A DNA stretch of 64,000 nucleotides from Trebouxia sp. TZW2008. Taxonomy: Eukaryota; Chlorophyta; Trebouxiophyceae; Trebouxiales; Trebouxiaceae. The stretch spans positions 124,001 to 188,000 of the forward strand of contig BDIU01000173.1 of NCBI GenBank assembly GCA_002118135.1, in the 5' to 3' direction. Below are positions 28,091 to 56,500 of the stretch, in pieces; the first letter of the stretch is position 1; every line of letters begins with the position of its first letter. The notes under the pieces are model-generated. The model did not search any database. It was given only the letters and a program-made list of their open reading frames with translations, and was not told the origin of the DNA. The translations under genes and the position numbers were made by a program.

Positions 28091-30341
28091 TCATGCAGTG
28101 TGGCAAGCCAAGCCTGCGACACAGGCGCATGTCATTAGCATGCTATTAGGTGCCCCTGCCTGCTGGCGCGCCCGCCTGTCTGCATGTCCGTGTGTGCGGC
28201 TCTGCATAAGATATAGGTCTAATGAGCTACCGCTGACAGCGCACACAACCAAGTGCTTGGCAATTGCAGCTCATTTTCCAACATGGGAGTCTGCAGTGGG
28301 GGGTTTTGGCAGTGCAAAAGACTTCCGGCAGCTGCGGAAAAGCATAGCAGCAGATCCAAACAGCCTTAAGCCTCCAAAGCCTGTTGGGCCCCGTCCAAGA
28401 AAACTGCCTCCTGGAGAGTATGACCACTACAGCAAGGGTCACGTGCTGCCTTTCCCAGGTGTGACTCGTCATGACCACCATTGGCAGTCATAGCCTGCTA
28501 GTGAGGGTCCATAACCCTGCTAGGGTGCATACATGTCTGCGTATCAGGTGTGCATGCTTCACACTCTGTCATAGCCTGATAGGGATGTCACTCTGCATTC
28601 AAGGATGTGTTGGGAATGCTGCATGGTCTGCTCTGTTGCCATGCCAATGCAGCATCTTCCGTGCACATGCAGTTGCCTCCATCAGCATCTTGTATACTCA
28701 AGAGCCACATTGCTCATTCTCTGGGTTCAATCCTTGGTCCCCATGTGTGCAGCAAAGAGCAAATATACAGAATGAGCAGGTGCGCTGTGATTACAGCAAG
28801 AAGCTTCAAAGGGGGCCTGCAGGGAAGTTAGTCAGCGCTCCAAGTGGAGTGCTAAAGCCATCACCATAGCTTGTACAGCAGCTGTTGACTCAGCATGGGT
28901 AACCAGTGGCCGAGTGATTTCTTGTAGCAAGCCAAAGGCATCTGGTGCTTCTTGTGCAGGGTCTGATGCAGCAGTGGTCAGGAGAACGCAAGCCAGGTTG
29001 TACGCTCGGAACAAAGCCACAGTGCACTACAGCGCCTATTTCACTGTGGCCACATACTTCACCTTCCTCCTGTTTTGGAAAGCTGATATGCATGCACTGA
29101 TGGGCTACTTTGCTTGCAGGGTCTGATGCAGCAGTGGTCAGGCAAACGCAAGCCAGGTTGCACTCCCAAAACAACCCCACAGTCCACTACAGCGCCTATT
29201 TCACTATGGCCACATCCTTCACCTTCCCCATGTCTGCGTCTTTTTAACAATTGACTGCAGCATGCTTGTACATTCCTGCAGGGTCTGATGCAGCAGTAGT
29301 CAGACGGACGCAAGCCCGGTTGCACGCCCAGAACAAACCCACAGTGCACTACAGCGCCTATTTCACTGTGGCCACATACTTGACCTTCCTCCTGTTTGCA
29401 TTCTTTGGGAAATTGCTGGAGAAGCTGGCTCGATTTGGTTGGGGCAGAGCGCTGCTGCTCAAGTTTCCTGGGTTATTCTCCTACGGGCTGTTCAGCAAGC
29501 GAGGGCCTTCACGACAGCAAATGGAGCAGACGCGATTTGAAATGAAGTTTCTGGGTGAAGGGTTTTCGAATGGTGAGCGTGAGTTTGACCTCTGTATGGT
29601 CTGGGCTGTCGCTTTTGGGTGATCCTGGTCTTTGGCTTTTATTGCTGTTGCTAAGACTGCCAAAGTAGTGACCGCAATCAGAAGTCAACAAGTCCACAGG
29701 TCCAGTTTACTTTCAGTGTTGTCAGTCAGCACAACACAGCTTCAGATTGCATTTTTGCTGATTGAATCACAAATCAAGATGGCCGGTTGTAACAGAGATA
29801 GTGCAGCTTCCTAAGAATCCACATACACAACAAAAATTTTGATTGCAATGTCCTCAGCTGCAGCGTGTTTCAGATGCCCTTGAGTCAAAACATGAAATGT
29901 GCCGTCATGCTATGTATGTCACAGCTCACAGGCGTATTGTTATTGCTGACACAGCTTAGAGTCTCAGCTGCAGAACGTTTCAGATGACCTCAAGTCACCA
30001 AATGAGATGTTTAGTCACGCAGTTCGTCTCACAGCTCATAGTGATAGTGTCATGACTGTTGCTGTGCAGGATCTGAAGCATCAGCTGATGCAAAGCCAGA
30101 TCAGCAAGTACAGGTCAGCGTTAAGGGTCCAGAGCCAGGGTATATTGCCACACCCATAATAATGGTGCAGGCAGCATTGACGTTGCAACAGGAAAGAGAG
30201 AAATGCAGATCATTGTTGGGTAACGGAGGTGTATATACACCAGGAGCACTGTTTGGGGTGACCACTTTGATACAGCGCCTCAATCAGGCTGGCGTTACAT
30301 TCCAAGTCACACAGCGGCAAGCAACAGATGCGACGATGTGA
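24398..30341 (+). CDS. Saccharopine-dehydrogenase-like oxidoreductase (SCCPDH family)
   Basis: NAD(P)-binding membrane-associated oxidoreductase of the SCCPDH/trans-acting enoyl reductase family; substrate uncertain. Exons: 24398-24492, 24605-24680, 24803-24861, 25614-25717, 27191-27388, 28270-28458, 29282-29572 and 30070-30341; 427 residues, all phases agree. The Rossmann start DIVVFGASGFTGQRV is followed by AAAGRSREKLERI, VLNCVGPYRYWGQPVV, CVEAGTDYLDVCGE, VVSAAGFDSIPADLG and PTWESAVGGFGSAKD. A hydrophobic segment lies at AYFTVATYLTFLLFAFFG. The C terminus has GPEPGYIATPIIMVQAALTL and GGVYTPGALFG, both typical of the family. Exons 5 and 7 are surrounded by partial copies of themselves. Confidence 0.9.
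25428..25515 (+). repeat. Dispersed repeat family C
   Basis: Copy of the ~85-bp repeat (cctggcgagacaggacttag, then cctagcacatgtgctc and an AT-rich tail) in intron 3 of the oxidoreductase. Confidence 0.65.
26540..27140 (+). repeat. Decayed copies of SCCPDH-like exon 5 start
   Basis: Four tandem partial copies before the true exon 5, near 26545-26630, 26720-26800, 26885-27000 and 27055-27130. All start at a tgcag acceptor-like site and repeat FMELMEFRFHEKAKKNG and VVSAAGF to varying extent. The copy at 26888 is the best preserved but lacks the exon's second half. Confidence 0.88.
27480..27970 (+). repeat. Decayed copies of SCCPDH-like exon 5 end/donor
   Basis: Four tandem partial copies after exon 5 (about 27480-27605, 27655-27730, 27780-27855 and 27905-27970). 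They repeat TSFLTFQIGPAGACG and the gtaagg donor. Three keep ggcgcatgtggtaaggac intact. Confidence 0.88.
28005..28089 (+). repeat. (CTGC)n microsatellite
   Basis: About 20 uninterrupted ctgc/tgcc units in intron 5 of the oxidoreductase. It accounts for the Pro-Ala-Cys-Leu repeat frames on both strands. Confidence 0.95.
28950..29240 (+). repeat. Decayed copies of SCCPDH-like exon 7 start
   Basis: Two tandem copies (28955-29080 and 29118-29235) precede exon 7. Each repeats an acceptor-like tgcag and GSDAAVVRRTQARLYARNK...YSAYF. The first copy stays open through FTFLLFW and could in principle splice. Confidence 0.87.
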
Positions 30342-31921
30342 TCAGAAGACAATGAGAACCCAGGGAGTAGGCAAAGAAAGGAAAAGCGGGTGTCGTTGCT
30401 ATTCATACAGGGAGCCTCAACTCTCAATAGTAGTTCTGGGCCAAATGGCAAAGTCACTGCAGCTGCTTTAGGTTTCTGTACTGCAAAGAACTGTTTTGAG
30501 ATGTGTGAGTTGACCTGACTTGTGTATTTGTGTAGTGATGGTACAAACGATGCTGTGTATGCTATTGGCAAGAACTGCAGATGTTTGAGCAGCCTGATAT
30601 GCTATACTACTAGCCAAGTTTCTGCAGGTTGCTGATCAGTGCAAGCCAGCTTTTGAGATGAACTGCAAAGGCTGCTTGTTTGTGGTTTCAGGCTGCCATT
30701 GTCCACATGAGCTGTCAGTGTCTTTCAGTTGTGGCATGGGGTTGTGATGTACACAGCGGGGTTGTCTAGGACTGTCCTTTTGTTGCCGCCTGTACTAGCA
30801 CTGCTTTGTCTGCCCATGGCAGTTGACGTCTTACAATGAGCAGTGGTGCACAGTCAACAGGACCAGTGTCGAGTGAAGATATCTTGACATCAATGTCAAG
30901 CTTCAATAGCAACAGAACACACTGGACAGCGCAAAGCAGCCACAGCGAGAAGCTTTTGCTGAGAAAGTGCAACTCAACAGCGCGTGATGGCATCAAGCGT
31001 TTGTTTGCATGGCATTGAATATCCACCATTGGGTCCTCCAACGAAAAAGAAGAAGAATGTTACCACATGCTGACGACCATGTGACACTCATGGCAAGCAC
31101 TTTTTGAGTCGCAAGTTATCTTCGTCCAGCCATGCTCAACAAGACTCGTTTTTGAAAGTGACGGCAAGATCTTTGCTGTAATTGTGAGCTTGAACACTCT
31201 GTCTTCGGCGCACAAGCTTGCAGCCCAGCTTTTCGCTTTTCGGGCGCGCCAGCAGTCGACCCTGGTGGTTGAACAAGATCTTAGCGTAGTGACTCTGCAA
31301 TTTACCGCAGATACACCCTTTTTAGCGCCAAATTTGTCGCGCTCGACGGGCTGTGTGCAATGCTTCAAGACCTGGTCGCACTAGCTGGTCCCGTCCTGCC
31401 GGACTGAAAGCAGACGACCGAGTTTGAGCGGTGCGTTGGTTTTAGAGTAGTGCCGGGAACGATCTGTCAGCTACAGAAGAGAGCGGACTTTGTGGCCTCA
31501 CCGAGCGCCTACCTTCAGCGCACATCATATGGTGTCGATGCAAGTGACACGCGCCAATATCTTGAGCTGTCCTGCCCGATCCCGCGCGCACCCTCAGCAT
31601 CAACAGCGATGCTGGCATGGCATATTGGCTTTTTGTTCCAGTCAGCAGCATAAACGCTCGTCACTAGGCAAGCATCATCGCCCGATCATCGTGTTGGGTT
31701 TGTCTGGCATCCCTATACTGGCATGACCGAGCAAGTTGTTGCTGTTGTTCAGGTGTACATGTCCAGCAAAAGCGCACAAAAGATTTGCTACCATTTCAGC
31801 TGCAGACGGTAAAATCTGTTCTGGTTCTTTCTTCTTCGAGACACACCAGACTGTGGCTTATGTTGCCACAGCGCACTATGTCATGTAAGCTGAGCATCAT
31901 TGCGGGACTGCTGATTTACAG
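30342..31921. other. Intergenic region and unresolved 5' exon of CBM20 gene
   Basis: 1.6 kb without a gene I can support. The first exon of the CBM20 gene should lie here and end at a codon boundary. One phase-correct option is a short exon from ATG 31723 to the donor after 31749; a longer Ser/Arg-rich frame at 31490-31723 also looks transit-like but lacks a clear in-phase donor. Small open frames at 30836-31018 (+) and 31060-31368 (-) are unrecognised. Confidence 0.4.
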
Positions 31922-34900
31922 GCAAGGCAAAGAGCACGGCGGGTCCTGCAAGCTGCTACAGCAGTTGGCTCACCAAATGACACTGCTGTGTCAACACAAA
32001 TTACTGTCAAACAGTGTGAGCTAGCGTTTGGGGACACTGTCAAGGTAGTTGGCGAATCAGACTTGTTTGGGTCCTGGGACAGTGACAAGGGTCTAGACCT
32101 GGAATGGCAGGACGGACATGACTGGGTGGCAAAACTTGAAGTGCCTCCTGGTGACTGCATATTCAAGGTGGGTGAAGCAAGCATACAGCAGCTGAGCTCA
32201 ACACCATGCTTACCCAGAGCTCAATGGATGCGCTAGTGGCTTTTTGATTGGCCATAGCTGCATTCTCTTCTGAGGCAACTGCTGGAGTCCACTGTTGCTC
32301 AGTGACCCTGACGTCCCAGCCCGCACTGGAATGATCTTTGCTGGCCAGCCTGGTCAACTTCTGAGATTTTTTTTTGTGCAGTCAGATCAAGGCAGAAATC
32401 TGACCAGTCTGTTGCTTGCAGTTGGTGATTGTGAATGGCAGTGGCGAAGCCCACTGGGAAGGAGGAGATAACAGGACTATCACGGTACACGCTGCTCTAG
32501 GTCACTCGATTGGAACAAGCTCAAGCATTATGCTTTGCACTTGCATCAGCAGATTTCACTACCTTTTGTTGCCGTTCAATGTCCACCTACGTGACGATTC
32601 ACTGGCATGCGTATGCTTTATCAAGCTGCTCATACCAATAAGTCTTTTGCCATGCACATGCCGTTATCACTATCATTGTTTCATTGTGCATCAAAGCCCT
32701 CTGGTGAAGTTAAGTTTGACCCAGTTATGCTGTTTGCAGATACCAGAAGATGCAGCAGGGGGACAGCTCAATCTGGAATGCACCTTCAATCAGACAGACG
32801 CCACAGAGGTGCAGATTGACGCGCCAGGCGGACACGGGTCCTCAAGGCCCAAGTCTGGTGCCAAGCCAGGCACCCCTGCCAGGCCAAAATCCAGTCCCAA
32901 GAAGCCACCAAGCCCTAAAATCCAGTCCTACGCAGCCGGCCGCCCTGCGTCACCAGGTGAGGTTGTCACACTGTGTTCAGCGCTGTTGCTTCTGATGATG
33001 CTGGCTGAAGCCAAGCCTGCCTGGCAAGATGAGACTTGTCTCACACACACCTAGCAGTATATGCTGGAACGTGTAATGATTACTATTGTTATGCTGGCTC
33101 ATGCCAAGACTGGTGAGTTAATCTCAGTGTGACAATTGAGAGAGTTTCATTCCACTAAGGCCGCATAGGACGCCGTTAAAGGGTCAAGCGCAATCTGCAG
33201 CTGACTTTGATCTTCATCTGCGCTCGACTACTTTCGATCAAGCCACCACCTCAGCTGCTCAAGGTAGTAGTGCAGCTGCTGGCTCTGATGGGAGTAATCT
33301 GCCCCAGTTTGGGCAGGCTCCCTGACTTTGCGCAAGCTATGGCTAGCACTTTGACCAATTTGCAGCAGCAAATGGAGGCAGCTGAGCAAAGTTTCAGTCA
33401 GCTGCCTCCATCTGCTGCTGCAAATCGTCAAAGTGCTAGCCACAGCTTGCGTGAAGTTCTGAATGTAGCCCTTGGGAGCTTGTCCAAACTGGGGGGAATT
33501 GTTGCCACCAGAGCCAGCAGTCTGCACTACTGCCTTGAACAGCTGACGTAACGGCTTGACTGAAAGCATGTGAGCGTAAAGAAGAATTAAAGTGAGCTGT
33601 AAGCTGCTTTGACTCCTCAGCCTCAAGCAAGTGAAGTGTTGCTGAAAGCCTACTCAACCTAGGTATAAGGTCTATGTTCGGTAGGGCAGAACGGTGACCT
33701 TGGGTCATGCAACAAACTGCAGAATACGGATACAGTCCTGGAATCAGGCTCCAAATCCCATTGTGATGTTTGAGAGTTTTTTATTTCACCAGGGTGGTAT
33801 TGAACAGAGCGCTGTTTTAGTGTCAAGCACAGTTGCATTGCAAAAACAGGAAAGAAGTTGTATGCTAGTTCGCATAAGGATCAGCTCAATGAGCAGATAA
33901 ACCCAATAAGCTCAGATCAGCTCTGAATAACCCAGTGCAGTCAAGAAGCTGCCACTGAAATTGTCACCACCTGACAGTCAGTCTGTTGGTTGCAGACAAA
34001 CTGCTGCTGGTCATGTCAGTGAGTTGATTGAGACCAGGTTGTCAATTGACAAGGGTCTGCTACCTAAACAGAGCTGTTTGTATTCAGCCCGCTGCTTCTT
34101 TGTGCACCAAACACGGCTGTCGAATCTCCTTAGCCAGCATGTCAAGTATGACGTGGATGAATGATGATGCTAGTTGCTCACATGAGCTATCCCGTCATGT
34201 TTGATCACGCATTTAAAGTAGTCTCCTTGCTCAGACTATATGCTTGTCGTCGCAGGGTTCTTTGGCAGCGCCCCTCCTAGGCTGAAAAGCAGCCCTGTTG
34301 ATCTCCTTAGCCAGCAGGCCAAGAAGAATGTGCATGAAGGACGACGCTAGTTACTTACTTGAGCTATCCCTCCACGTTTGAACATGCATGTAAACTGGTC
34401 TCCTTGCCGTTGCAGGGTTCTTTGGCAGCGCCCCTCCTAGGCCTAAAAGCAGCCCTGTCAAGCAAGAGAGGCCAGAGTCCTACGCAGCTGGCCGGCCTGC
34501 ATCTGCAAGTAAGCTACTCAGGATGTCTCACCTCCCTTCATGCTCAATGTACATGATTCAGGGTAGCACAGCACCAACCTGGTTGGAGACAATCGATTGC
34601 TCCAGTATGTACCTAGCTGGGCCTGCTGAGCCTGTCTAGCACACATTTAGAATGAAAACAAATGAAATGAACTCAGGATGTAAAATGCTTCCTGCTTTCA
34701 TCAAACTCACAGCCTGACTTTGAAAATGCGTCCTCGACATTCACAGTTGACGCTGTAGCTGCTTGAGCACTGTCAGGTGTCAGTGATTCCTAGAGCAATG
34801 CAACTGTGCTTGCACAACGGCTTCTCTTTGTAACAACTGCTTTGGTTACCAAGAAACTTGTACTTATACTAAATTTGTCTTACTCAGAGGTGCTGCTGCA

Positions 34901-37900
34901 GTCAGAATGCGGTGATGTGGTACCTGGCGCTCGTTACATCGAGAACATCCTTACATTGAGTGTCCTTACAAAGAGAAGTTCCTGTAGCTGTGATGCTCAG
35001 TGCATGAAACTTGCAAGATGGTCAAGCAACTGCATGCCATTGCAGGCTTCTTTCCTGCCGCTCCCCCCAAGCAGAAGTCTACTCCTGCCAAGCAAGAAGC
35101 CCCCAAGTCCTACACAGTTGGTCGCCCAACATCGCCAGGTACTAACAGTACCATAGACATGCTGTATCCATTGCTGATGCCAGTGCACACCTGTTTCACT
35201 TACAGGATTGCAGCCATGTTTTCTCTGCAATACTGCAATAGGCAATGTGCCAGCTTGTGTTGCCATAATCTCGAGTGCTGCGAGACCACTCTGATTGATT
35301 CCACAAGACAACAGTCGTGATAATAATATTTACACCTTCCAGCACGTGTGCTAGGTTTGTGTGCGGCCCAGGTCCTATCCTGCCAGGCAGGCTGGTTCTG
35401 AGCGCCTTTGTAAGGACGTCTCATGTTTCACTTTTCAAAGTCAGACAACACAATGTCATTCCAGATGTTCCTAGGCTGAGGGTTTGGAAAAACAATTTTT
35501 GTACACCACAGTATGCTTGCTATTGCAGGTTTCTTTGGCAGTGCACCTCAGAGGCCAAGTAGCCCTAAAGCGAAGCAGGAAAGCCCCAAGTCCTACTCAC
35601 AAGGCCGTCCTGCATCGCCAGGTAAAATGTCAATTTCTGCTATGGCTCCACAGCTGGGCATGTTTGTTGATTGCTGGGTACATAATACTTGCGGTTGGGA
35701 TTTTGCAGCTTGAACTTTCATGCACTGCCCCTGTGTACCAGTCTTCAAGGGACTGACTTTGTTTTGTGTTTTCAGGCTTCTTTGGCAGTGCTCCTTCCCG
35801 GCCGAAGACTCCTGCTCCAAAGCAGGACAGCAGCAACTCATACTCACAAGGTCGCCCTGCATCACCGGGTAAACATACTGATGTTGGCCTTGTTTTGCCT
35901 TTGCAGGGTCCAGTCAGCAAGTGCTGCACCTTGAGCATTTATGTGTTGAACTGCTGTTTGAAAAGTACATAGAGCGCCCCTTGCAGTTGTGAGAACCATG
36001 CGATTGGTGAACTTACAGATTGAACTTCCTTTTGCTCCACATTGCTTTGGCTTGTGCTTTCAACAGCAAATTTTGCCCTTGGCACAACCAGACAACCCGT
36101 GTAAGCCATTTTCTCTGCAGGCTTCTTTCCCAGTGCCCCTGCGAGGCAAGAAAGCACCTCCTCTAGGCAGGACAGCTCCAAATCCTATTCAGCAGGCCGT
36201 CCTGCTTCCAAAGGTAAATGGGACATTTCTGTGCCCTGTGCTGCAAGTGAGTCTTGGTGCGCTGCCAAGCTTAGTTACCCTCCTTTTTTATGATGTAGCC
36301 CTGAGTAGAGTCCTTTACTTCTCCATTTCTATGATGTGGCCCTGAATAGAGCCCTTTGCTTCTCCTTTCTAAGATGTGGCCCTGAATAGAGCCCTTTGCT
36401 TCTTCAGGCTTCTTTCCTGCTGCCCCTCCCAGGCAAGAAAGCACTTCCGCCAAACGTGAGACCCCCAAGTCCTACTCAGCAGGCCGGCCTGCTTCAAAAG
36501 GTACTCAAGTCTGCTTCATGAGCATTCATGACGCCGTCAGTCCATTTGTACAGGCGTAAGTCATTGCTTGCTAGCAATGAGAGTTGTAGTTGTAAGCAGT
36601 CACACTGTTGACTGCAATCAGCATCCTGCTTTCTCTTGAGATCTGTTGATGAGCTGTTGACTTGCAACTCTTTCTCAAGCTTGACTTGAGGATCACAGTG
36701 ACTTCTTCCTGTAGGGGCGCTAAATGGAAGGACAATTTTAATGTAAGGACAACGCAATTGGAGACCAGTCACTGCTTTCTGACTGCATTGGCACCTCTGA
36801 GCAAGGACAATTGGATATGAGGACAATGTTCTTTGGAACCAAAGCAGTCATTACAAAGACAACTCACTGTACAAGCATTCTGCTACTGCAGGCTTCTTTC
36901 CCAGTGCCCCTCCTAGGCATGAGAGTACCTCACCCAAGCAGGAGAGCCCGAAGTCATATTCACAAGACCGCCCTGCATCGCAAGGTGACTGTCCTTCACA
37001 ACGTGGGCTCTGTGTATTGGCTGAAATGCATTGGCAAGCCTCAGCTGATCGTCCTTCTCACCTCCTGTCATTGCTTGAAAGGGGCTGTTACGATATTGGT
37101 TATCGTCTGCATCTCATTCTCAGCATGTGCACTTTGACTGCTATTTGTTGTGGCAGGTTTCTTTGGCAGTGCTCCCTCTAGGCCAAACAGCCCTCCACCC
37201 AAGCAGGAAAGCAGCAAGTCATACTCACGAGGCCGTCCTGCATCCCCAGGTATGTTGTGATCATCATCAGTGTGGGCTGTTGTAAACTCTGGATGTAAGA
37301 ACACTGGTTGTAAGGACATTCTCGATGTAAGGACAATGCAACTGGGAATCAGGCACTGTATTCTGACTACAGTGGTATTTCTGAGTAAGGACAATTCAAT
37401 GTAGGGACATTTTGCTTGGTAGCCAATGCAGTCGTGATATCAAAAGATCACTATACCATGTTGTTGTCAAATTGCATCAATTGAATGCTGTCACTTTAGC
37501 ACCTACATGTTGCACCTCTGCCTGCACATTACTGCTGTTTCACCACTCCTTATCCTAATGTGGGGTTCTTGACCGCAACTCCAATTTGCAGGCTTCTTCA
37601 ACAGTAGTCCACCTGAGAGGGAGAACAATCCTCCCAAGCAGGAAAGCCGCCCATCGTACTCACGGGGGCGCCCTGCATCACCAGGTGAATATGTTGTGAG
37701 CATCATCAGTATGGGTTGTTACCATGTTGCTGTCAAATTGCATCTACTGAATGCTGTCATGTGATCATCATCAGTGTGGGCTGTTGACATGTTTCTGTCA
37801 AATTGCATCTACTGAAGGCTGTCATGTGATGATCATCAACAGTGTGGGTTGTTGCCAATGTTCTGTCAAATTGCATCATCTGAATGCTGTAACATTAGCA

Positions 37901-40900
37901 CCTCAATGTTGGACCTCCTGCAAAAAGCTGCTATTTCACCGCTCTTCATGCTTATGTGGGGTTACTGACCGCAACTTCAATTTGCAGGCTTCTTCAACAG
38001 CAGTCCACCTGAGAGGGAAAATAGTCCTCCCAAGCCCGAAAGCCGCCCGTCCTACTCACGGGGCCGCCCTGCATCACCAGGTTCGTGCTACTGTTTGCAG
38101 CTGTTGTGCAAGTGAACCTGACGTGATCATCATGGTGAAGCTGCTGCTGATTGCCACACCTAGCTGAGCGCTAGCAGCAAGCTCTTTGTCTTCCCCGATT
38201 GATCCATCCATCTGGAGCCAATCTGCTCCTGTCAGACTCGTGAAAGGTGGAGCCTTTTGTTTGATTTTGAGGGCTCAGCCTAACATGCCTTTTTTCAAGC
38301 TTCCTCCAGAGCAAGCTGTCATGCCTGCATGCGCTGGCATGGTATAGTGCTGCCTTCTGTGTAGGTACACACCAAAAAACCTGCAACAACCACAGTAATC
38401 TCTCAATATAGCGACTGAATTGGTCACCAAGAAGAATGTCCTTACATTGAATTGTCCTTACTCAAACGTACCACCGCAGTCAGAGTGCAATGCTTTGTTC
38501 CCAGTTGCATTGTCCTTACATCGAGAATGTCCTTATAATGAGTGTCCTTATATCAGGAGATTACTGTACCTGTAACACACCTACAGCCATCATGCAGTGA
38601 TAACCCCTTACTTCTGTTTGTCAAAAACCAGCTGTTGTCATGGTAGTGCTGTTTGGGCACTGCATGTGCTTCGAAGCCTGACAACCGTGTAAATCTGTTG
38701 CCTGCATGTCCAGTCTGCTTGCATGCGCTCTGTCAGCATGTGTGGAGCTGTTGCCTGCTGCTCAAGCCAGTAAATATTTGGAAAGTAGAATGGACACCTA
38801 CTGAAAAGCTGGAGAGAAACTCTAATCTGCAGGACTTTCAAAGTGTTTGCAGACGCTTGACAGCTTTGTTCCATGAGTCTTATTGTTGCAGGCTTCTTTG
38901 ATAGCGCTCCTCTCAGGGTAAAAACTTTTCCATTATGTAGAGCTTGGACAAAGTTTGCAAACGCTTGACAGCTCCATTCAATGAGTCTTAATGTTGTAGG
39001 CTTCTTTGATAGCGCTCCTCCTAAGAGAGATAGCAGCCCGCCCAAGCAGGAGAGCAGCCAATCCTATTCACATGACCGGCCTGCATCGCCAGGTGACTTG
39101 CCCTGCAATATCAGAACATGGTCGTTCATTCATTCATTCATTTTAAAAGTGGGCTAGGCAGGCTCAGCAGGCCCAACTAGGTACGTACAGAAGCAGTCAA
39201 GTGTCTCCAACCAGTTCAATCATGTGCTAACCTAAACCAATTATATTGGACATGAAGGGCGGAGATGTTCTTGTACACAGTTGACTGCCAAGTATCTCTG
39301 GGTTTACCCTTGGCCTGAGTGCCTGATAACTGCCCAAAAATGCACTGGTAAGGCAGTCTGCCCTGCGACATCCGCGTTGTGTGACCAAGCAATCTAAGCC
39401 TCCTATGGGCAATAACCTGATTAAGGCTAGGCAGCTTGCAAAGGGTCCTGATGCTGTGAAAGGGTCCTGATGCTGACAAGCAGTTTCTCGTGCTGGGATT
39501 GGAGCTTTATTGAAGCAGTCTAGCGTTTCACACTGACACTCTACATTCATCCAGGACATAGGCACAGCAAGCCCGGTGCCACCTGTGTCCGATTAGATTT
39601 GATTTGCTTTGACATTGTGTGTATGACCCCCTGCTGGGTCCCTAGGACAGAAAATGCAACTGATTGAACGAACCACCCCTAGCCGTCCCTGTTCTTCCTG
39701 TCTGCTGTCATGACTAAAGAGACATCACTGCAGTGTCGCAACAAGAGTTCTTGTACTTTCAAGCTTCACGCCACTCATGCCATTCATCCCAGTCCTCGCA
39801 GATCTGTTCCACCAACTCTGTATTGTTGAAAGAGCTTGCAATTGTTGTTGTTGTTTTTTGTTGTCACTAGAGCTTGCACAATCTGTCAAAGTGTCGTGGA
39901 ATAGCTTTACTTTCAGCGTTCTAGCATCACCCCAGCCGAGCCCGACTTGTTTTTCAAGCAAACTTATTGTTGTTACAGGCTTCTTTGGCAGTGCGCCTTC
40001 TAGAAGAGAAAGCGCTCCTCCCAAGCAGCAGAGCTCAAACTCTTACTCCGGTGGACGCCCTGCATCACCGGGTATGTTACTCATCACTGTGGAATCAGTC
40101 AACTTAGTCATTCATTCTAAATGTGTGCTGAACTGGCTCAGCAGGCCCAGCTAGGTACATACTGGAGCAATCAATTGTTTCCAACCAGTTGGTCCTGTGC
40201 CGTCCTAAATCACTTGTACTGTGGTATCAGTATGTGCATCAATTGCGGATAAATTTTGCAGATCCTGGCTGCTTCTGACATCAGCACGTGCATGCACAAG
40301 TCCTCCTTTCCAGATGCTGGACAGCTGTACATTGTCAGCTTTCTGCTGCAGAGATCCGCATGAGCTTGTGCATTCGTGCATCAGAGCATCTCAAGTATCA
40401 GAAACTGCAGAATGCTTCTGTGGTCATTTGGCTGTAAGACAGGCTTGGGATTGACAATGTATCAACTGTTTGGATGTATCAGTTGACAGACGTTACTTGT
40501 GCCACACAAATCTAGCACTCTTGCTGGAGAGTGTAGTAGTTATTACTATTATTACAGGCTTGGGGTGACAATGTATCAATGTGATTGCTGCTGCAGGGTT
40601 CTTTGATACGGCCCCTGCCAGGCAAGAAAGCTCTCCTAACAAGTCAGATGGACGCATGTCCTACTCGTCACGCCGCGCTGCGACGTCAGGCGCAACCTCA
40701 GGCGCAGGTAACATTGCTGTCACGTTAGTACAACTCACAATGGCCACTCATAATTAGCTGAGATGCACTTCAATTTCCTCAGGCGCCAAAAGCGATTCTG
40801 TGTGTTGTCGTCGCTTGACTGCTTCTGACATTTTGATCTGTGAAAAGCTTCTATGTGTGCACAAGACTTCTGGTTAATCCTTTGCATTGCCCAATATGCA

Positions 40901-43127
40901 GGCTTCTTTCCTCCTAGGCATGACAACAATTCTGGCAAGGAAGACTCAGGTCGCTCTTCATCAGGCGGTAAGTCAGTCACCACAGCAATGTGCCATTGTC
41001 CTCTTCAGTGTTCAAATTGTTCTGTGGTGGTTCAGCTTGTGTACATGTGTACAGACTGGGCTCGTCAAAGACAGTCGCTTGCTGAGTGTACATACCTAGC
41101 AAGGCCTTTAGGTCCAACTAGCATGCCATTTAACAGGTGATAGGTAGCCGTTTGAACCTATTCCTACCTTGCGTTTGTTTCAAACTTGAGTGCAGGCCTT
41201 TTTTCTCAGCCTTGCTTTGGGTCTTCATGGCCATCTTCATGTCTTGTGTCACAGCTGTGTGACAGCTAGAAGCCTCTGAACAGAAAGACATCGTGGCATA
41301 TCTGTTGCTGCACTAGCCTTGCACATCCTGCTTACCCAGGCCGCACCCCTCAAGGTGATTGCTCTTTTGAGAGACTTGCACACTGACCATTGAGGCGCTG
41401 TGCGTTCTGAGCTAGACTCGATGTTGACATTGTCGAGGGTTGCAAGCAAGGCTGTGCTGCAGGTTTCTTTGGCAGTGCCCCTCCTAGGCCAAACAGCCCT
41501 CCTCCCAGGCAGGAGAGCCCCAGGTCTTATTCAGCTGGCCGCCCTGCCTCACCAGGTCAGTTGGCCATCATTCAGTCACTAGCCTTGCTCCCACCTACTG
41601 TCAAAACTTAGCTGTTGTCATTGTGGTACGAACACCAAAGACGGTTTATTTAAGTAAATATTCTCCCGTGGCCACCATTTTGGATTTTTGAACGGACGTT
41701 GGGTATGAACAATGGAATATGATAAATTAGGTACTCGTTTACTGCCTCAGCATGAAGCTGGCTGCCATATCTCACAAGGTGATGCTGAATGCATCATTAT
41801 TATGTACGGTGTCCTGTCTTTGTCAAATTGTACTGTTCAACTGCTGTTCACTGAGCATCAATGCATCAACCTGTTGTTTGCAACAGTGTCGTCCCGCCCT
41901 TATTGACAAACTTATGCCCTGCCTAATCAAATGCTCTTTCATGTACAGTAAAGTCTTGTTGTAAGGACGCTCAATGTAAGGACAATCTCGATGTAAGGAC
42001 CCCGCCCTTGGTGACCAATCATTGCGTTCTGACTGCAGTGACCCCTCTGAGTAAGGACATTTTGGTGTAAGGACAAATTTGGTGGTGACCAAGGCAGTCG
42101 TTACAAAGAGAGTTTATTGTAGCATTGATGCGCTCTGCCCAGTACTCTTATCATTCTGACGCTGACTGACCTCATGTGCTCGCTTGCACAGCACAACTGA
42201 ATCAAGCCTGACATCCTGCATGCTGCATCTGTTCTGCTACTTCTGGCAACCACAGATGTCAGTCATGGTTGCAGGCTTCTTTCCAAGTGCTCCTCAGAGG
42301 CAAGAGAGCAACAGCGGCAAGCAGGACAGCCCCAGGTCTTACTCATCTGGCGGGTCTGCATCATCAGGTGATTGATTCAATCCATTTCTGGATCAAGATG
42401 GCAGATCATCCTGCCAGACCATCTCTCATCTCTCACTGCATATCATGGCCTTTCACATTTGGAATAACACGCATGTATGAGACACAAAGGTCGCACGGAC
42501 ATGAGAGAGTCTGCAGCACCATTCACACCTGAGCTGATGCATATGCTGCACACTTCCACACGTATTATAGTCATCAAAGTCGACTCTGCTGACAAGCTTG
42601 TGTGTCGGCTGTGCATCTTTGCTGGGCTGCCTCTGCTCACAAAAACTCCCATTATGACGCCTCATGGCCTGGGGTTTTCTCCCTTTTCAGCTGTGACAAA
42701 GGCATTGCCCGTGCAGGCTTTTTTGCCAATGCCAGCGCCCGACACACAAGTCAGCCTGCTGACCTGACAGATTCTGACATTGAAATGCGTGAGAGGCTTC
42801 GCTCCATGACTCCTGAAGAACTTGAGTCATTGAAGGCAAGTCTTTTGGACTGCATGTGCATTCCAGCAGTAACTGCAGATATTGCAGCAGCAAACAAGCG
42901 TCTTCTTCTGAACATTCTCATGCAGAGTTTGAGCATATCATTCATGATGAATCCTGGCAGTTGGTTCTTGTATGAATGGCTGCTGTATCTCTGTTGCCTA
43001 TAACACATGATATTGCTTTGTTCAGGTGAGTGATCTGAAAGAGATTTGCAGACAGGAGCAGCTAGCAGGCTTTTCCAAACTCAACAAGAGCGAACTGATC
43101 AGCTTGTTGCAAGATCAGTACAGATGA
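31922..43127 (+). CDS. CBM20 starch-binding protein with tandem-exon repeat array and SAP-like C terminus
   Basis: From the first secure exon the protein has 741 residues, plus an unresolved N terminus. Exons 31922-32167, 32422-32484 and 32740-32956 give a cleavage-site-like stretch (RARRVLQAATAVG) and a CBM20-type fold: ITVKQCELAFGDTVKVVGES, LFGSWD, WVAKLEVPPGDCIFK, VNGSGEAHWEGGDNRTI. Then 16 exons each encode one module of the form GFFGSAPxRPxS, a P/K/Q/E linker, SYSxGRPASP: 34416-34508, 35046-35138, 35529-35621, 35776-35868, 36121-36213, 36408-36500, 36892-36984, 37157-37249, 37592-37684, 37988-38080, 39000-39092, 39979-40071, 40597-40707, 40902-40967, 41463-41555 and 42275-42367. Exons 42717-42835 and 43026-43127 end the protein with an acidic helix and a SAP/Rho-N-like motif (DLKEICRQEQLAGFSKLNK). 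The last intron uses a GC donor. The middle is predicted disordered and basic. The role is inferred: starch- or pyrenoid-associated scaffold. Confidence 0.85.
33003..33100 (+). repeat. Dispersed repeat family C
   Basis: Copy with aagcctgcctggcaagatga at its start and acacctagcagtatatgctg further on, in intron 3 of the CBM20 gene. Confidence 0.6.
33198..33599. repeat. Large inverted repeat (hairpin) in CBM20 intron 3
   Basis: Left arm ~33198-33386 and right arm ~33399-33599 are reverse complements at roughly 80 percent identity by eye, around a ~12-nt loop; ggaggcagctg and cagctgcctcc flank the loop exactly. Each arm reads like a gene fragment: left arm (+) has GSSAAAGSDGSNLPQFGQAP, right arm (-) has AGSGGNNSPQFGQAPKGY and QAVASTL. 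Transcribed with the host intron it would fold into one long hairpin. Confidence 0.9.
34250..34350 (+). pseudogene. Decayed repeat-module exon
   Basis: Starts cgcagggttctttggcagcg and reads GFFGSAPPRLKSSP, then loses the second half of the module and its donor. Its first half closely matches the intact exon at 34416. Confidence 0.85.
34565..34680 (+). mobile_element. Non-LTR retroelement 3' tail (family D)
   Basis: Reads ggttggagacaatcgattgc, gtacctagctgggcctgctg, then a gaaatgaa tail. It is the same 3' end seen at 39120 and 55130, in an intron of the CBM20 gene. Confidence 0.6.
34805..34990 (-). mobile_element. MITE-like repeat family A
   Basis: Reverse-orientation copy with ctttgtaacaactgctttgg, gtcttactcagaggtgctgc and tcgagaacatccttacattg, within a CBM20-gene intron. 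Confidence 0.6.
35320..35405 (-). repeat. Dispersed repeat family C
   Basis: Reverse copy containing gtgtgctaggtttgtgtgcg and cctgccaggcaggctggttc, in a CBM20-gene intron. Confidence 0.6.
36285..36407 (+). repeat. Tandem repeat of intron end before module exon 36408
   Basis: Three ~39-bp direct repeats (atgatgtagccctgagtaga / atgatgtggccctgaataga / aagatgtggccctgaataga) form the polypyrimidine-rich end of the intron, just before the exon at 36408. Confidence 0.85.
36725..36875 (+). mobile_element. MITE-like repeat family A
   Basis: Carries aatgtaaggacaacgcaatt, tctgactgcattggcacctc and gcagtcattacaaagacaac, then the start of the tail ...actgtac. Confidence 0.6.
37290..37455 (+). mobile_element. 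MITE-like repeat family A
   Basis: Carries tgtaaggacattctcgatgt, tctgactacagtgg, tctgagtaaggacaattcaa and gcagtcgtgatatc near its end, then atcactatacc. Confidence 0.6.
37685..37890 (+). repeat. Tandem repeats in the intron between module exons
   Basis: Three to four ~60-bp direct repeats of gatcatcatcagtgtgggct with ttctgtcaaattgcatc. The intron ends upstream of the exons at 37592 and 37988 also match each other (tgtggggtt, gaccgcaact, aatttgcag), so intron and exon were duplicated together. Confidence 0.85.
38390..38570 (-). mobile_element. MITE-like repeat family A
   Basis: Reverse copy with acagtaatctctc at one end and gagattactgtacc at the other: short imperfect terminal inverted repeats. 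Inside are aatgtccttacattgaattg and gtccttacatcgagaatgtc. Confidence 0.7.
38880..38935 (+). pseudogene. Decayed repeat-module exon start
   Basis: Reads ttgttgcaggcttctttgat and AGFFDSAPLR, then diverges. It closely matches the start of the intact exon at 39000, whose upstream intron (acgcttgacagct...atgagtctta) is duplicated with it. Confidence 0.85.
39120..39570 (-). mobile_element. 5'-truncated non-LTR retrotransposon (family D)
   Basis: Minus-strand relic of a LINE-type element inside a CBM20-gene intron. An open stretch (39216-39479) carries the RRLRLLGHTTRMSQGRLPYQ motif common near the C terminus of non-LTR reverse-transcriptase proteins, followed by KGKPRDTWQS. The element ends in a short (AATG)n tail at 39131-39142 (minus strand). 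Only the 3' end is present. Confidence 0.75.
40105..40215 (-). mobile_element. Non-LTR retroelement 3' tail (family D)
   Basis: Shares ggctcagcaggcccagctag and ccaaccagtt with the copies at 39120 and 55380, in a CBM20-gene intron. Confidence 0.55.
41945..42121 (+). mobile_element. MITE-like repeat family A, best copy
   Basis: Begins tacagtaaagtcttgttgta and ends cgttacaaagagagtttatt-gta. The two ends are imperfect inverted repeats of ~25 bp. Internally: tctgactgcagtgacccctc and gagtaaggacattttggtgt. No coding capacity, so a non-autonomous DNA element is likely. Confidence 0.72.
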
Positions 43128-44096
43128 CACTTTCATTTGCTGGAGCAGTTGCATGCTTACAAATTGTTTCTTATAAGTCAGATGCACCTTCAGATGCACT
43201 CCTGTCCATCTGTGATGCTTATTCAGAAGCGCACAGAGCACGAGAAGCATTTTCTTTGTCTGCATCTCTCGCGCTTCACTGCAGTCTGCCTAGTGGGCAA
43301 GGTGTTACTTACAATATGACAATGGCTGAGAAAGTCTTTGTACTGTACATTTGCATCATCTGAGAGCATGTCAATGGACGTGATTGCAGCCTGCTATGGA
43401 ACGACTGTTGCACACCTTTATTGCACATGTGCATACACAAGTTGGATTGACATGAGACATGCTTGAGCGTGCGACAAGTGTAATGCAACCGTGTTCATTG
43501 CTCATTGGCTACGGCCTCCAATTCGCATACCATGCAAATGGAGTGAAAGCTGACGTCATGTCGCAAGTACGAATGATGTGCATTCCGCGTTTGCTGCCAC
43601 TTGTTGCTCAAATGCGCTCTGATCCTCGACGAATTACTCAACATGCACACGTCATGACTACTGAGCTGGGGTGCTGGCAGGTAAACTCTTAACAAGTCTT
43701 GTCAAGTCTGAGCAACGTATGCATGATCAGATTCACTCGGCCGCAGGCTGTTGACTGACCTCACACTTTGCTTACATGCTGTACTTCATGCTGCTCACGC
43801 TATTTTGCAGTCATGCTTGTGCAATGGTCGTGACTCTACACATTATCCGTTTTAACACAGCTACATCTTGGTGATTGTAATCTTTGAACACTACAAATTA
43901 CAGCTCAATCCCTGCAGCCATACAATGCATGCATACACTAAATAAGCAACGTCCAGCAGGATCTTAAACGCTTCATCCATTACAGAATCTTTTATTTGCT
44001 CCCATGCTACTTGATCTTGATTTTGGGCTGCCAGTTGAAACATAGGCTCCTCTTATGACGCCTAACGGCGTAGACTTTTCTATTTCTTTTGCCTCC
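43128..44096. other. Convergent intergenic region CBM20 gene / cysteine synthase
   Basis: Nearly 1 kb with both 3' UTRs, including the hairpin motif at 44058. No gene supported. Confidence 0.5.
44058..44071. repeat. Short hairpin motif, 3' flank of cysteine synthase gene
   Basis: ACGCC-TAAC-GGCGT in the same block as at 9078 (ttatgacgcctaacggcg then tagacttttct). It lies 26-39 bp past the stop codon of the minus-strand gene, within its likely 3' UTR. Confidence 0.7.
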
Positions 44097-50413
<6,317 letters not shown>

Positions 50414-53529: not shown

Positions 53530-56500
53530 TCACTGAAAAGGGTTAAGGGGAACGTAAGGGGTTTCATTTGGGCAGTAAATGCCGCCCCTGTTGCCAATTT
53601 CCACCGTGTGATATCTGTCAGCAAACTGGTGAGGCAGGGGCCAGCCCTCTTCAGGTGTGACCCACATGCGCAGCAGGTGCCTCTTGCGCTCTTCCTCCTA
53701 CAGTGACAAGAGCAACAAGGATGATATAAACATTAGTGGTGACACCAAATGCACTCATCATCATACCAACAACAAAAACCGAGCTGGACTGTAAGATATC
53801 TGTCAGCAGAATGATGAGGTGAACTTCTGAGCGGCAGTACACGATGAATTGATTGTGCAGCAGCTGAATGTCTTCTGCCCGCATGATACTGTGCGTTAAG
53901 CCCACTCGTGAGGGCAAGAAGCGTGATCAGTGCAAGAGCAAGCATGACGCCAGGAAGAGGACAGGATATTCACCTCGTAGTCGGTGAATCCAGAGCGGCA
54001 GTGCACGATGGAGTGATTGTGCAGCAGCTGAATGTCCCCTGGCTGCAGTTTCATGTCCATTCGTAGCTCCTCTAACCCTGCCAGCCTGTTGAACTCAGCA
54101 AAGGCAGCTAGCTGAGTCTGAGTCAAGCGAGGCACCTCCTCATGCCTCTGACACAGCTGGTAGTAGTTGTCAGCGTAAAAACAGCACAGGTGACCCTGCA
54201 TAGCACATATAGCTTGCTTCAGTGCATTTGTCTGTTGTAAGCATGAGTGCATTGCTCAGCAAAGACAGCTTGTCCAATATCCTGTTGAAATTGGCAAAGG
54301 CAGCTAGCTGAGTCTGAGTCAGGTGAGGCACCTCCTCATGCCTCAGACACAGCTGGTGGTGGCTGATAGTTGTCAGCATAGAAAGAGCATAGGTGACTCT
54401 GCATAGCACGTGTAGCTTGCTTCCGTGCATCTGTCTGTTGTGAGCATGAGTGCATTGCTCAGCAAAGACTGCTTGTCTGACCCTGATAGCCTGTTGAACT
54501 CAGCAAAGGCAGCTAGCGAGGCACCTCCTTGTGCCTGTGACACCGCTGGTAGTAGTTGTCAGCATAGAAACAGCACAATGACCCTGCATAGCACAGATAG
54601 CTTGCTTCACTGCATCTGTCTGTTGTGAGCCTGAGTGCATTGCTCAGCAAAGACAGCTTGTCTGACCCCAATAGCCTGTTGAACTTGGCAAAGGCAGCTA
54701 GCTGAGTCTGAGTCAGGCAAGGCACCTCCTCATGCCTCTGACACAGCTCGTAGTCATCTGCATAACATGATCAACTTGCATCAGTACATCTGTCATTTGT
54801 GAGTATGGGTGTGTTGCTCAGCGAACACAGCTCCTGCCAATCTGTTGAGCTCAGTAAAGGCAGCCAACTAAGTTTGAGTCAAGCAAAACACCTCCTCATT
54901 CCTTGGACACAGCTGGTAGTGGTTGTCAGCGTAGAAACAGCACAGGTGACCCTGCATTGCATCATTTTACCTCTATGTCTGACAGAATAGTAGACTGTCT
55001 AGACAGGAACAAGATCTGTCCCAAGCTGATGCAAGTTCTTGGCATATACACAGCAAAGATGACCCTACATTCCATGCATGAGGCTGTTGACTCAACTACT
55101 CATACAAGCGCAACACCTGATTCTACAGAACTGGCTGGAGACAGTTGATTGCTTCTGTACGTACCTAGATGGGCATGCTGAGCCTGCCTAGCCCACGTTT
55201 ACAATGAATGAAATGAATGAATGATTCTCTAGCCTTTGCGCAGGACAACCCTGTCAAAGCCTGGATCCAAAAGTCAGCCTGCAAAAGTATGTGCAGCCTT
55301 GCAGCATGCTTGGCACATGCGCATATTCATTCATTCATTCATTCATTCATTCATTCATTCATTCATTCATTCATTCATTCATTCACTCATTCATTGTAAA
55401 CGTGGGCTAGGCAGGCTCAGCCAGCCCATCTGAGTACGTACAGAAGCAATCAACTGTCTCCAGCCAGTTCGACTATGTGCTAACCTAAACCATTTGTATT
55501 GGGCATGGAGGGCGGAGAGGTCCTTGCACACAGTTGAGTGTTAAGTATCTCTGGGTTTACGTGTTACACATGCGCATACCTTTTGAGTCTATCCACGAAG
55601 GCAAGTGAATCTGTCTGTCTGGCTGCCTGATAAACTGAAGAACATGCAAACACATTGCAAAAAGCCAGCATTACCATGTCACAATTGAAGACTGATAATC
55701 ACACAGCAATTTGTTTGCTGCATGCACACATACTGACATGCTTCTCAAGTAGCATGACTGTACACACAATGACTTTTTGAAGGCGCAGAATTCCAGTAGT
55801 ACTGTACCTTAGAGCAGTTGAAGACTGGCAGCACAAAGTAGTCACATGATTGATGTCAAAGAAAGGATTGAAACGCAGGTTGAAAAGGCAGTACCTTGTA
55901 GCGATTGAAGACTGGCAGCACAAAGTAGGCCTTCTTGCCAGCCGGGATCTCATTCTTGCGGTCTAGGTAGCAATCCTCTGATAGCACCTGCGTACACTTG
56001 CATGTCTCAGATACTGTTCAATAATGATGTTACAGTGCAGGGCACGTACTGGCGGTCACCTTGCCATATGAGTGCACAAGCGGGTTGACAGTCCTCACGT
56101 AAGATTTCGACATTTGCAGATGCTTCCTGAAATGCACACATGAGCAAAGATCACACTTCACAAGAAGTTGTCTGCAGGCATGAGGGCTGCAGACACTTGT
56201 GCAGCTAGGAAGCTTAACGCCCAAACCCTGACTTTGCTTGTTACAGCAAACTTGCCAGATGTTTGAAGTATGCAATGTGAGCCAACACAAGCAAATATCA
56301 TGACATAGTCAAGCAGGGCCGCCCAGCTGCAGGTAGATATTTGCGAGCTCAGAAAATGACATGCAGGCAAAAGTTGATGATGTTTAAACGGGCATGTCTG
56401 GTGCATTAAGACAGAGCATTTGGAGAAGCCTTGTTTCTATCAGAATTGGCATCATGTATAAATTGACGTACCTTGACATAGTCTGGGTGACTCTCCAGCA

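Follow-up and report, generated by a model that had tools for sequence, protein, structure and literature searches.

A starch-binding repeat protein and a membrane-type paralogue with a common motif in Trebouxia: a candidate pyrenoid starch tether

In Chlamydomonas, a single motif is carried by EPYC1, by the starch-binding proteins SAGA1 and SAGA2, and by the membrane proteins RBMP1 and RBMP2, and it was proposed to link the pyrenoid matrix, the starch sheath, and the tubules (PMC10473226). CsLinker was described as contacting RbcL through F-[LM]-x-R-K residues of a short helix (PMC11570498). For other algae, the organization of a pyrenoid by one shared motif has so far been raised only as a possibility that their pyrenoids use one motif of different sequence (PMC10473226) or as speculation that such proteins, with one shared motif and other sequences, exist (PMC13167743, 2026). 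Trebouxia has pyrenoids (PMC11523091, PMC12712428), and bestrophin-like genes were reported for Trebouxia A48 (PMC12712428). In the genome of Trebouxia sp. TZW2008 (68.5 Mb, 527 contigs), we analyzed a 64,000-nucleotide stretch of DNA (the window, on contig C166) that contains a gene for a starch-binding repeat protein, with a paralogue on contig C207. The pair provides concrete starch-side and membrane-side candidates in one genome, which makes the idea directly testable.

Exons of the window gene were listed between 30 and 45 kb by searching for AG acceptors that precede an FF start in phase 1 and then scanning for phase-1 GT donors. The script returned 16 module exons and two decayed copies (34256 and 38892), along with the exon at 42717, the first of the C-terminal ones. 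Because it admitted only lengths divisible by three, the symmetry of the module exons was partly a search criterion and was not by itself counted as evidence. Independent support for the module exons came from the continuous frame that runs from the CBM20 exons through the 16 modules into the C-terminal exons: 31922-32167, 32422-32484, 32740-32956, the modules, 42717-42835, and 43026-43127, when joined, form a single open frame of 741 residues to the stop. The listing and the frame confirmed the 16 phase 1-1 module exons at 34416-42367 (14 of 93 bp, plus 111 and 66 bp) that had been proposed in an earlier sequence-only reading.

All exons of the window gene lie on the plus strand. Exon 31922..32167 encodes what we read as a transit-peptide-like start (RQRARRVLQAATAV), followed by the first part of CBM20. 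Its acceptor is a weak one, scoring 1.8 bits, less than any other of the 42 used; upstream, the best-scoring phase-0 donor (8.7 bits) lies after 31752, with an in-frame Met at 31723, giving a possible but uncertain first exon (MTEQVVAVVQ, 31723..31752). The second CBM20 exon (LVIVNGSGEAHWEGGDNRTIT) occupies 32422..32484, and exon 32740..32956, which runs from phase 0 to phase 1, encodes the end of CBM20, a basic linker, and the first half-motif, QSYAAGRPASP^G (^ marks the splice junction). Every module exon has an AG acceptor before it, phase 1 at both ends, and GT after it. The 93-bp exons are modules 1 (34416..34508), 2 (35046..35138), 3 (35529..35621), 4 (35776..35868), 5 (36121..36213), 6 (36408..36500), 7 (36892..36984), 8 (37157..37249), 9 (37592..37684), 10 (37988..38080), 11 (39000..39092), 12 (39979..40071), 15 (41463..41555), and 16 (42275..42367, with a diverged C-terminal element). 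Module 13 (40597..40707, 111 bp) also has a diverged C-terminal element, and module 14 (40902..40967, 66 bp) is short and diverged. Both decayed copies, 34256..34350 and the truncated 38892..38968, are situated within introns and contain an in-frame stop. Exon 42717..42835 begins with the last FF half-motif, continues with the stretch that precedes the Rho_N-like part, and ends at a GC-AG donor (AAG^GCAAGT); as read from the sequence, the neighboring GT would run into a stop. The final exon, 43026..43127, carries the stop codon and encodes the Rho_N-like part.

CBM_20 (PF00686; Pfam cut-off 23.3 bits) was matched by the N-terminal piece at E 9.6e-15 (54.6 bits) and in the whole protein at E 1.2e-13 (51.1 bits). 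The domain aligned with the starch-binding domains of cyclodextrin glucanotransferases (CGTases) and glucoamylases. Its GSWD and WEGG tryptophans, which we take to be starch-binding residues, were kept in the four alignments shown, all with CGTases. At the other end of the protein, where a SAP-like domain had been suggested, the 73-residue C-terminal piece scored 26.4 bits with Rho_N (PF07498; Pfam cut-off 24.9) and 22.9 bits with SAP (PF02037; Pfam cut-off 23.9), whereas in the whole protein both scores (20.7 and 16.1 bits, respectively) were below their cut-offs. SAP was rejected as the end domain, since it stayed below its cut-off in both scans and Rho_N fitted better; because the Rho_N score of the whole protein is also below the cut-off, we label this part Rho_N-like.

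Other repeats were found in and around the window gene. The sequence TGTAAGGACA is a short dispersed element with eight copies in the 64-kb window (0.12 expected), located at 34961-42075, in both orientations and all within introns of the window gene. The intron that precedes the module array contains a large imperfect inverted repeat (33198-33599) with nested arms of 78, 47, 36, and 28 nt that are 74-96% complementary. In the upstream gene, which presumably resembles a saccharopine-dehydrogenase-like oxidoreductase, a 162-bp unit is present in 2.8 copies (28955-29397), each with a stretch like SDAAVVRRTQARLHAQNKPTVHYSAYFTVATYFTF, representing another exon duplication.

The sequence-only reading held that each module exon encodes a 31-residue unit with a conserved start and a conserved end. 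The repeat is real, and the start was found throughout (FF in 16 of 16 modules, FFx[SATK][AS]P in 15), but the C-terminal element was recovered in only 13 modules and is missing from those at 40597, 40902, and 42275; an SY/SF-type element occurs in 14 of 16. The unit of conservation is not the exon. It spans the splice junction, SYSxGRPASP^GFF(G/D/P)SAPxR, where the conserved ends of adjacent exons join, and a variable spacer separates successive motifs. The window protein thus has 17 FF sites, one for each of the 16 modules plus one in the terminal exon, and three of the sites lack their first half; 14 of the 16 spacings between FF sites are 31 residues, and the remaining two are 37 and 22. 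Gain or skipping of any whole exon leaves a rebuilt site at the new junction.

The modules of the window gene are under purifying selection. For the 14 modules of 93 bp (modules 13 and 14 were left out for their length), pooled pS was 0.560 against a pN of 0.249, and pN was lower than pS in 91 of 91 pairs, which are not independent. Mean identity of these exons was 0.68, compared with 0.34 and 0.29 in their 60-nt flanks (91 pairs, ungapped). Modules 9 and 10 differ by 6.5 synonymous and 2.5 non-synonymous changes, and 109 of 130 aligned bases of their upstream introns are identical; module 10 is a recent duplicate of module 9, as seen from the synonymous excess and the intron likeness. A chance repeat was rejected, given the purifying selection and an exon identity far above that of the flanks. 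A pseudogene array was also rejected, as the frame is open to the stop and the decayed copies are recognizably different.

Three queries were run against the genome, two of them module consensus sequences and the third a junction sequence; they gave 24, 30, and 8 matches. All 62, including many repeats of the same places, fell in the window gene or the gene on C207, the only further module gene among the best candidates, which alone were scored. In the splice model, the C207 gene encodes 1242 residues in one frame on the minus strand. Its first exon (57936-57877) has what we read as a transit-peptide-like start (MAFALTPKLCLVRGQGRCRQ); seven further exons follow, five of them coiled-coil-like repeats, and the acceptors at 56099 and 53477, below the 4-bit threshold, were placed by eye. 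A hydrophobic exon (VALAAVLVGGLGAFLYF, 52837-52745) reaches a 19-residue mean hydropathy of 1.80. The exon after it runs from phase 0 to phase 1 and closes with KSYAAARPKTP^G; the array then comprises 22 module exons and a last exon that carries an FF half-motif and the stop, giving 23 FF sites with 22 spacings of 23-62 residues; a decayed module copy lies at 43442. The exons that precede the two arrays end alike (QSYAAGRPASP^G in the window gene). The whole C207 protein had no Pfam match up to E 1 and is therefore taken to lack a CBM20, Rho_N, bestrophin, or rhodanese domain. We read it as a plastid-targeted protein with a coiled coil and a membrane helix, from the sequence and its hydropathy only. 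The earlier statement that no described protein is known to have this layout must be qualified: in the same genome, the window protein is partnered by this paralogue of membrane type with its 23 FF sites.

The C207 modules are under purifying selection as well. In the equal-length classes, pN/pS was 0.45 (10 pairs), 0.79 (3 pairs), 0.27 (15 pairs), and 0.86 (1 pair), with pN lower than pS in 29 of 29 pairs; for six of the 22 modules, no other module has the same length. Exon identity averaged 0.80 within C207 (29 pairs) and 0.64 between the two genes (14 pairs), against 0.29 to 0.34 in the 60-nt flanks (ungapped). Two side observations concern the exons of this gene. The coiled-coil-like exons at 56698-53262, in the N-terminal half of the protein, measure 201, 264, 201, 204, and 216 nt, begin and end in phase 0, and appear to have arisen by tandem duplication. 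The exons at 46842, 46137, 45471, 44748, and 42714 are 89-93% identical in DNA (10 pairs; pS 0.255, pN 0.029), and in seven pairs of their 200-nt flanks, 11 of 14 scores did not exceed the 95th percentile of shuffles and three did so barely; exon-limited homogenization of this set is possible.

Both module arrays are free of Trp and Cys and are strongly basic, with pI values of 10.70 (window protein) and 10.45 (C207) and net charges of about +38 and +33 at pH 7.5. The charge-hydropathy test placed them on the disordered side, but it gave this result for every one of the six segments examined, among them the coiled-coil-like part and the Rho_N-like tail, so the test hardly discriminates and the predicted disorder is to be read accordingly. 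The longest Pro/Gly-free stretch in each module of the window gene is 5-18 residues. The sequence RGRP occurs at three places in the window protein and at 11 in C207, with basic residues on both sides in one only (KRGRPRK). No Pfam family matched the module arrays up to E 1, and a search with four modules of the window gene found 0 of 177635 PDB sequences at E<=10. The pattern [DN]W[RK]xx[LIVA], which is that of the Rubisco-binding motif of Chlamydomonas, had 0 matches in either protein, and no module contains Trp; membership in this motif family was rejected because the pattern is absent from both. A CsLinker-type helix was likewise rejected, as F-[LM]-x-R-K is absent from the window protein and C207.

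The 741-residue window protein was searched against 5.8 billion proteins, and none was found at E<=0.01 among the 7999 candidates scored; residues 470-1240 of C207 gave none at E<=10 among 8000. The database is probably poor in spliced eukaryotic proteins, in which case these absences say little. With the 72-residue exon 32740..32956 as query, one protein was found among five candidates. This metagenome protein (P0001, 82 residues, ENA source) is identical to the exon at 65 of 72 residues and shares its final 15 residues (SPKIQSYAAGRPASP) without a change; another sample thus contains a diverged copy of the exon. Among open-access papers on pyrenoids, Rubisco linkers, and Trebouxia, none of the listed titles and abstract openings described the window protein or the motif. 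Searches of the genome for the LCIB and bestrophin families gave no match and are uninformative, because no positive control matched either; a search for alpha carbonic anhydrase gave three matches, two of them above the cut-off.

The two proteins with a common motif suggest a mechanism, so far undescribed, by which starch and membranes could be held to a single compartment, with the CO2-fixing pyrenoid as the likeliest one. The window gene would encode a plastid tether that joins starch to a protein condensate, C207 would present the same motif from a membrane, and the likeliest partner would be the Rubisco matrix; we hold this reading tentatively, at somewhat less than an even chance, and regard the window protein as a candidate pyrenoid starch tether. 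Its CBM20 would hold starch or starch precursors, and its flexible basic tail would show 17 junction-spanning sites, mostly 31 residues apart, each binding one partner weakly, with the tail adhering by avidity. C207 would show 23 sites from a membrane-type, coiled-coil-like protein, and because both proteins display the same motif, starch and membrane would be drawn to the same partner. In the simplest reading, this partner would be abundant, with binding strength set by copy number. Since each exon junction restores the motif, exon duplication or skipping could change the valency, and duplication could raise it with every site intact. Counted in favor of such a tether were the CBM20 with its aligned tryptophans, the purifying selection on the modules of both genes, the basic arrays free of Trp and Cys, the position of the motif after the hydrophobic helix of C207, the similar exon ends before the two arrays, and the arrangement proposed for Chlamydomonas; the absence of the known Rubisco-binding patterns and of any PDB chain matching four modules was counted against it, as were the empty LCIB and bestrophin searches, although these had no matching control. 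The linker or scaffold proposed in the sequence-only reading survives as a basic, Pro/Ser-rich repeat chain on a CBM20, with modules that match no Pfam family, whereas its repeat unit and end domain have been corrected and its layout has gained a partner.

A CBM20 protein and a paralogue with a hydrophobic helix and a coiled-coil-like region would also fit starch-granule initiation at the thylakoid. In such a system, resembling the MFP1/PTST2 pair to which SAGA has been likened (PMC13167743), the membrane coiled-coil protein would mark the site, the CBM20 protein would bring primers, and the modules would bring in enzymes of starch synthesis or one another, with no role for Rubisco. We consider this unlikely, since the two proteins share one motif and do not complement each other, and site numbers of 17 and 23 suggest that an abundant partner is bound by avidity. 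The domain, moreover, is a CBM20, and PTST2 has a CBM48. Less probable again is that the FF, Y, and R residues bind each other and the two proteins co-condense, joining starch to membrane without any other partner. Aromatic and arginine residues do recur in a Pro/Ser-rich chain, and the motif is common to both proteins, but conservation extends beyond the aromatics (in 14 modules of the window gene and in an alignment of 29 of the 38 modules), which speaks for a specific binding surface, and with net charges as positive as those given above, the chains should repel each other without an acidic partner. A plastid nucleoid or RNA tether is very unlikely. In this reading, the Rho_N-like tail and the AT-hook-like RGRP runs would attach to nucleic acid, so that nucleoids are linked with starch or a membrane. 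The tail scanned alone does exceed the Rho_N cut-off, and R-loops of the Arabidopsis chloroplast are resolved by the Rho-N protein RHON1 (PMC12652420); the tail and the RGRP runs (KRGRPRK among them) could point to nucleic acid and were counted against the starch tether. Yet Rho_N reaches only 20.7 bits against 24.9 in the whole protein, RGRP is present in only 3 of 16 modules of the window gene compared with 16 for FF and 14 for the SY/SF-type element, and C207 has no Pfam match over its whole length.

In comparison with the starch tether that we favor, the plant MFP1/PTST2 system is similar in pairing a thylakoid-bound coiled-coil protein with a carbohydrate-binding protein (PMC13167743). 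The Trebouxia pair differs in its shared repeat motif. We know of no such motif in MFP1/PTST2. EPYC1 and CsLinker resemble the window protein as low-complexity repeat chains, and EPYC1 is basic like the repeat chain here; the window protein differs from both in having neither the Trp motif nor the F-L-x-R-K helix pattern and in having a starch anchor. The FF-site spacings (22-37 residues, usually 31, in the window protein and 23-62 in C207) lie within the FLIPPer range of 20-120 (PMC11570498). On the Rubisco side, the second helix of the small subunit in the Trebouxia genome reads NDAGQVLQEIDNCTK versus RDPMQVLREIVACTK. The changed residues are presumably EPYC1 contacts. The CsLinker contact residues of the large subunit are widely conserved. 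Three of the four (E51, D86, and I87, with F97 for Tyr97; contacts from PMC11570498) are kept in Trebouxia, which, given this conservation, proves nothing.

SAGA1 and SAGA2 share with the window protein a CBM20 and copies of a short motif, which in SAGA binds the pyrenoid matrix (PMC10473226). Their Trp-based motif is absent from the window protein and C207, SAGA1 has two Rubisco-binding motifs (PMC11649565) as opposed to 17 sites, and the SAGA proteins are coiled-coil (PMC13167743), whereas no coil is evident by eye in the Pro-rich chain of the window protein, which also has an added Rho_N-like tail. On the membrane side, C207 differs from RBMP1 and RBMP2 in having one hydrophobic helix, coiled-coil-like exons, and 23 FF sites, without a bestrophin or rhodanese domain; RBMP1 is bestrophin-like. 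As in RBMP1 and RBMP2, a membrane protein shares its motif with a starch-side protein, and C207, membrane-type by prediction, would be the counterpart (PMC10473226). The window protein fits the Chlamydomonas-type arrangement only if its motif binds Rubisco. If true, independently evolved tethers of this kind would be parts for pyrenoid engineering. It is possible, although on balance doubtful, that in this alga a common matrix-binding motif arose with no relation to those of Chlamydomonas and Chlorella and was copied through exon duplication into a starch-anchored and a membrane-anchored scaffold, following the same pyrenoid rule with different sequences.
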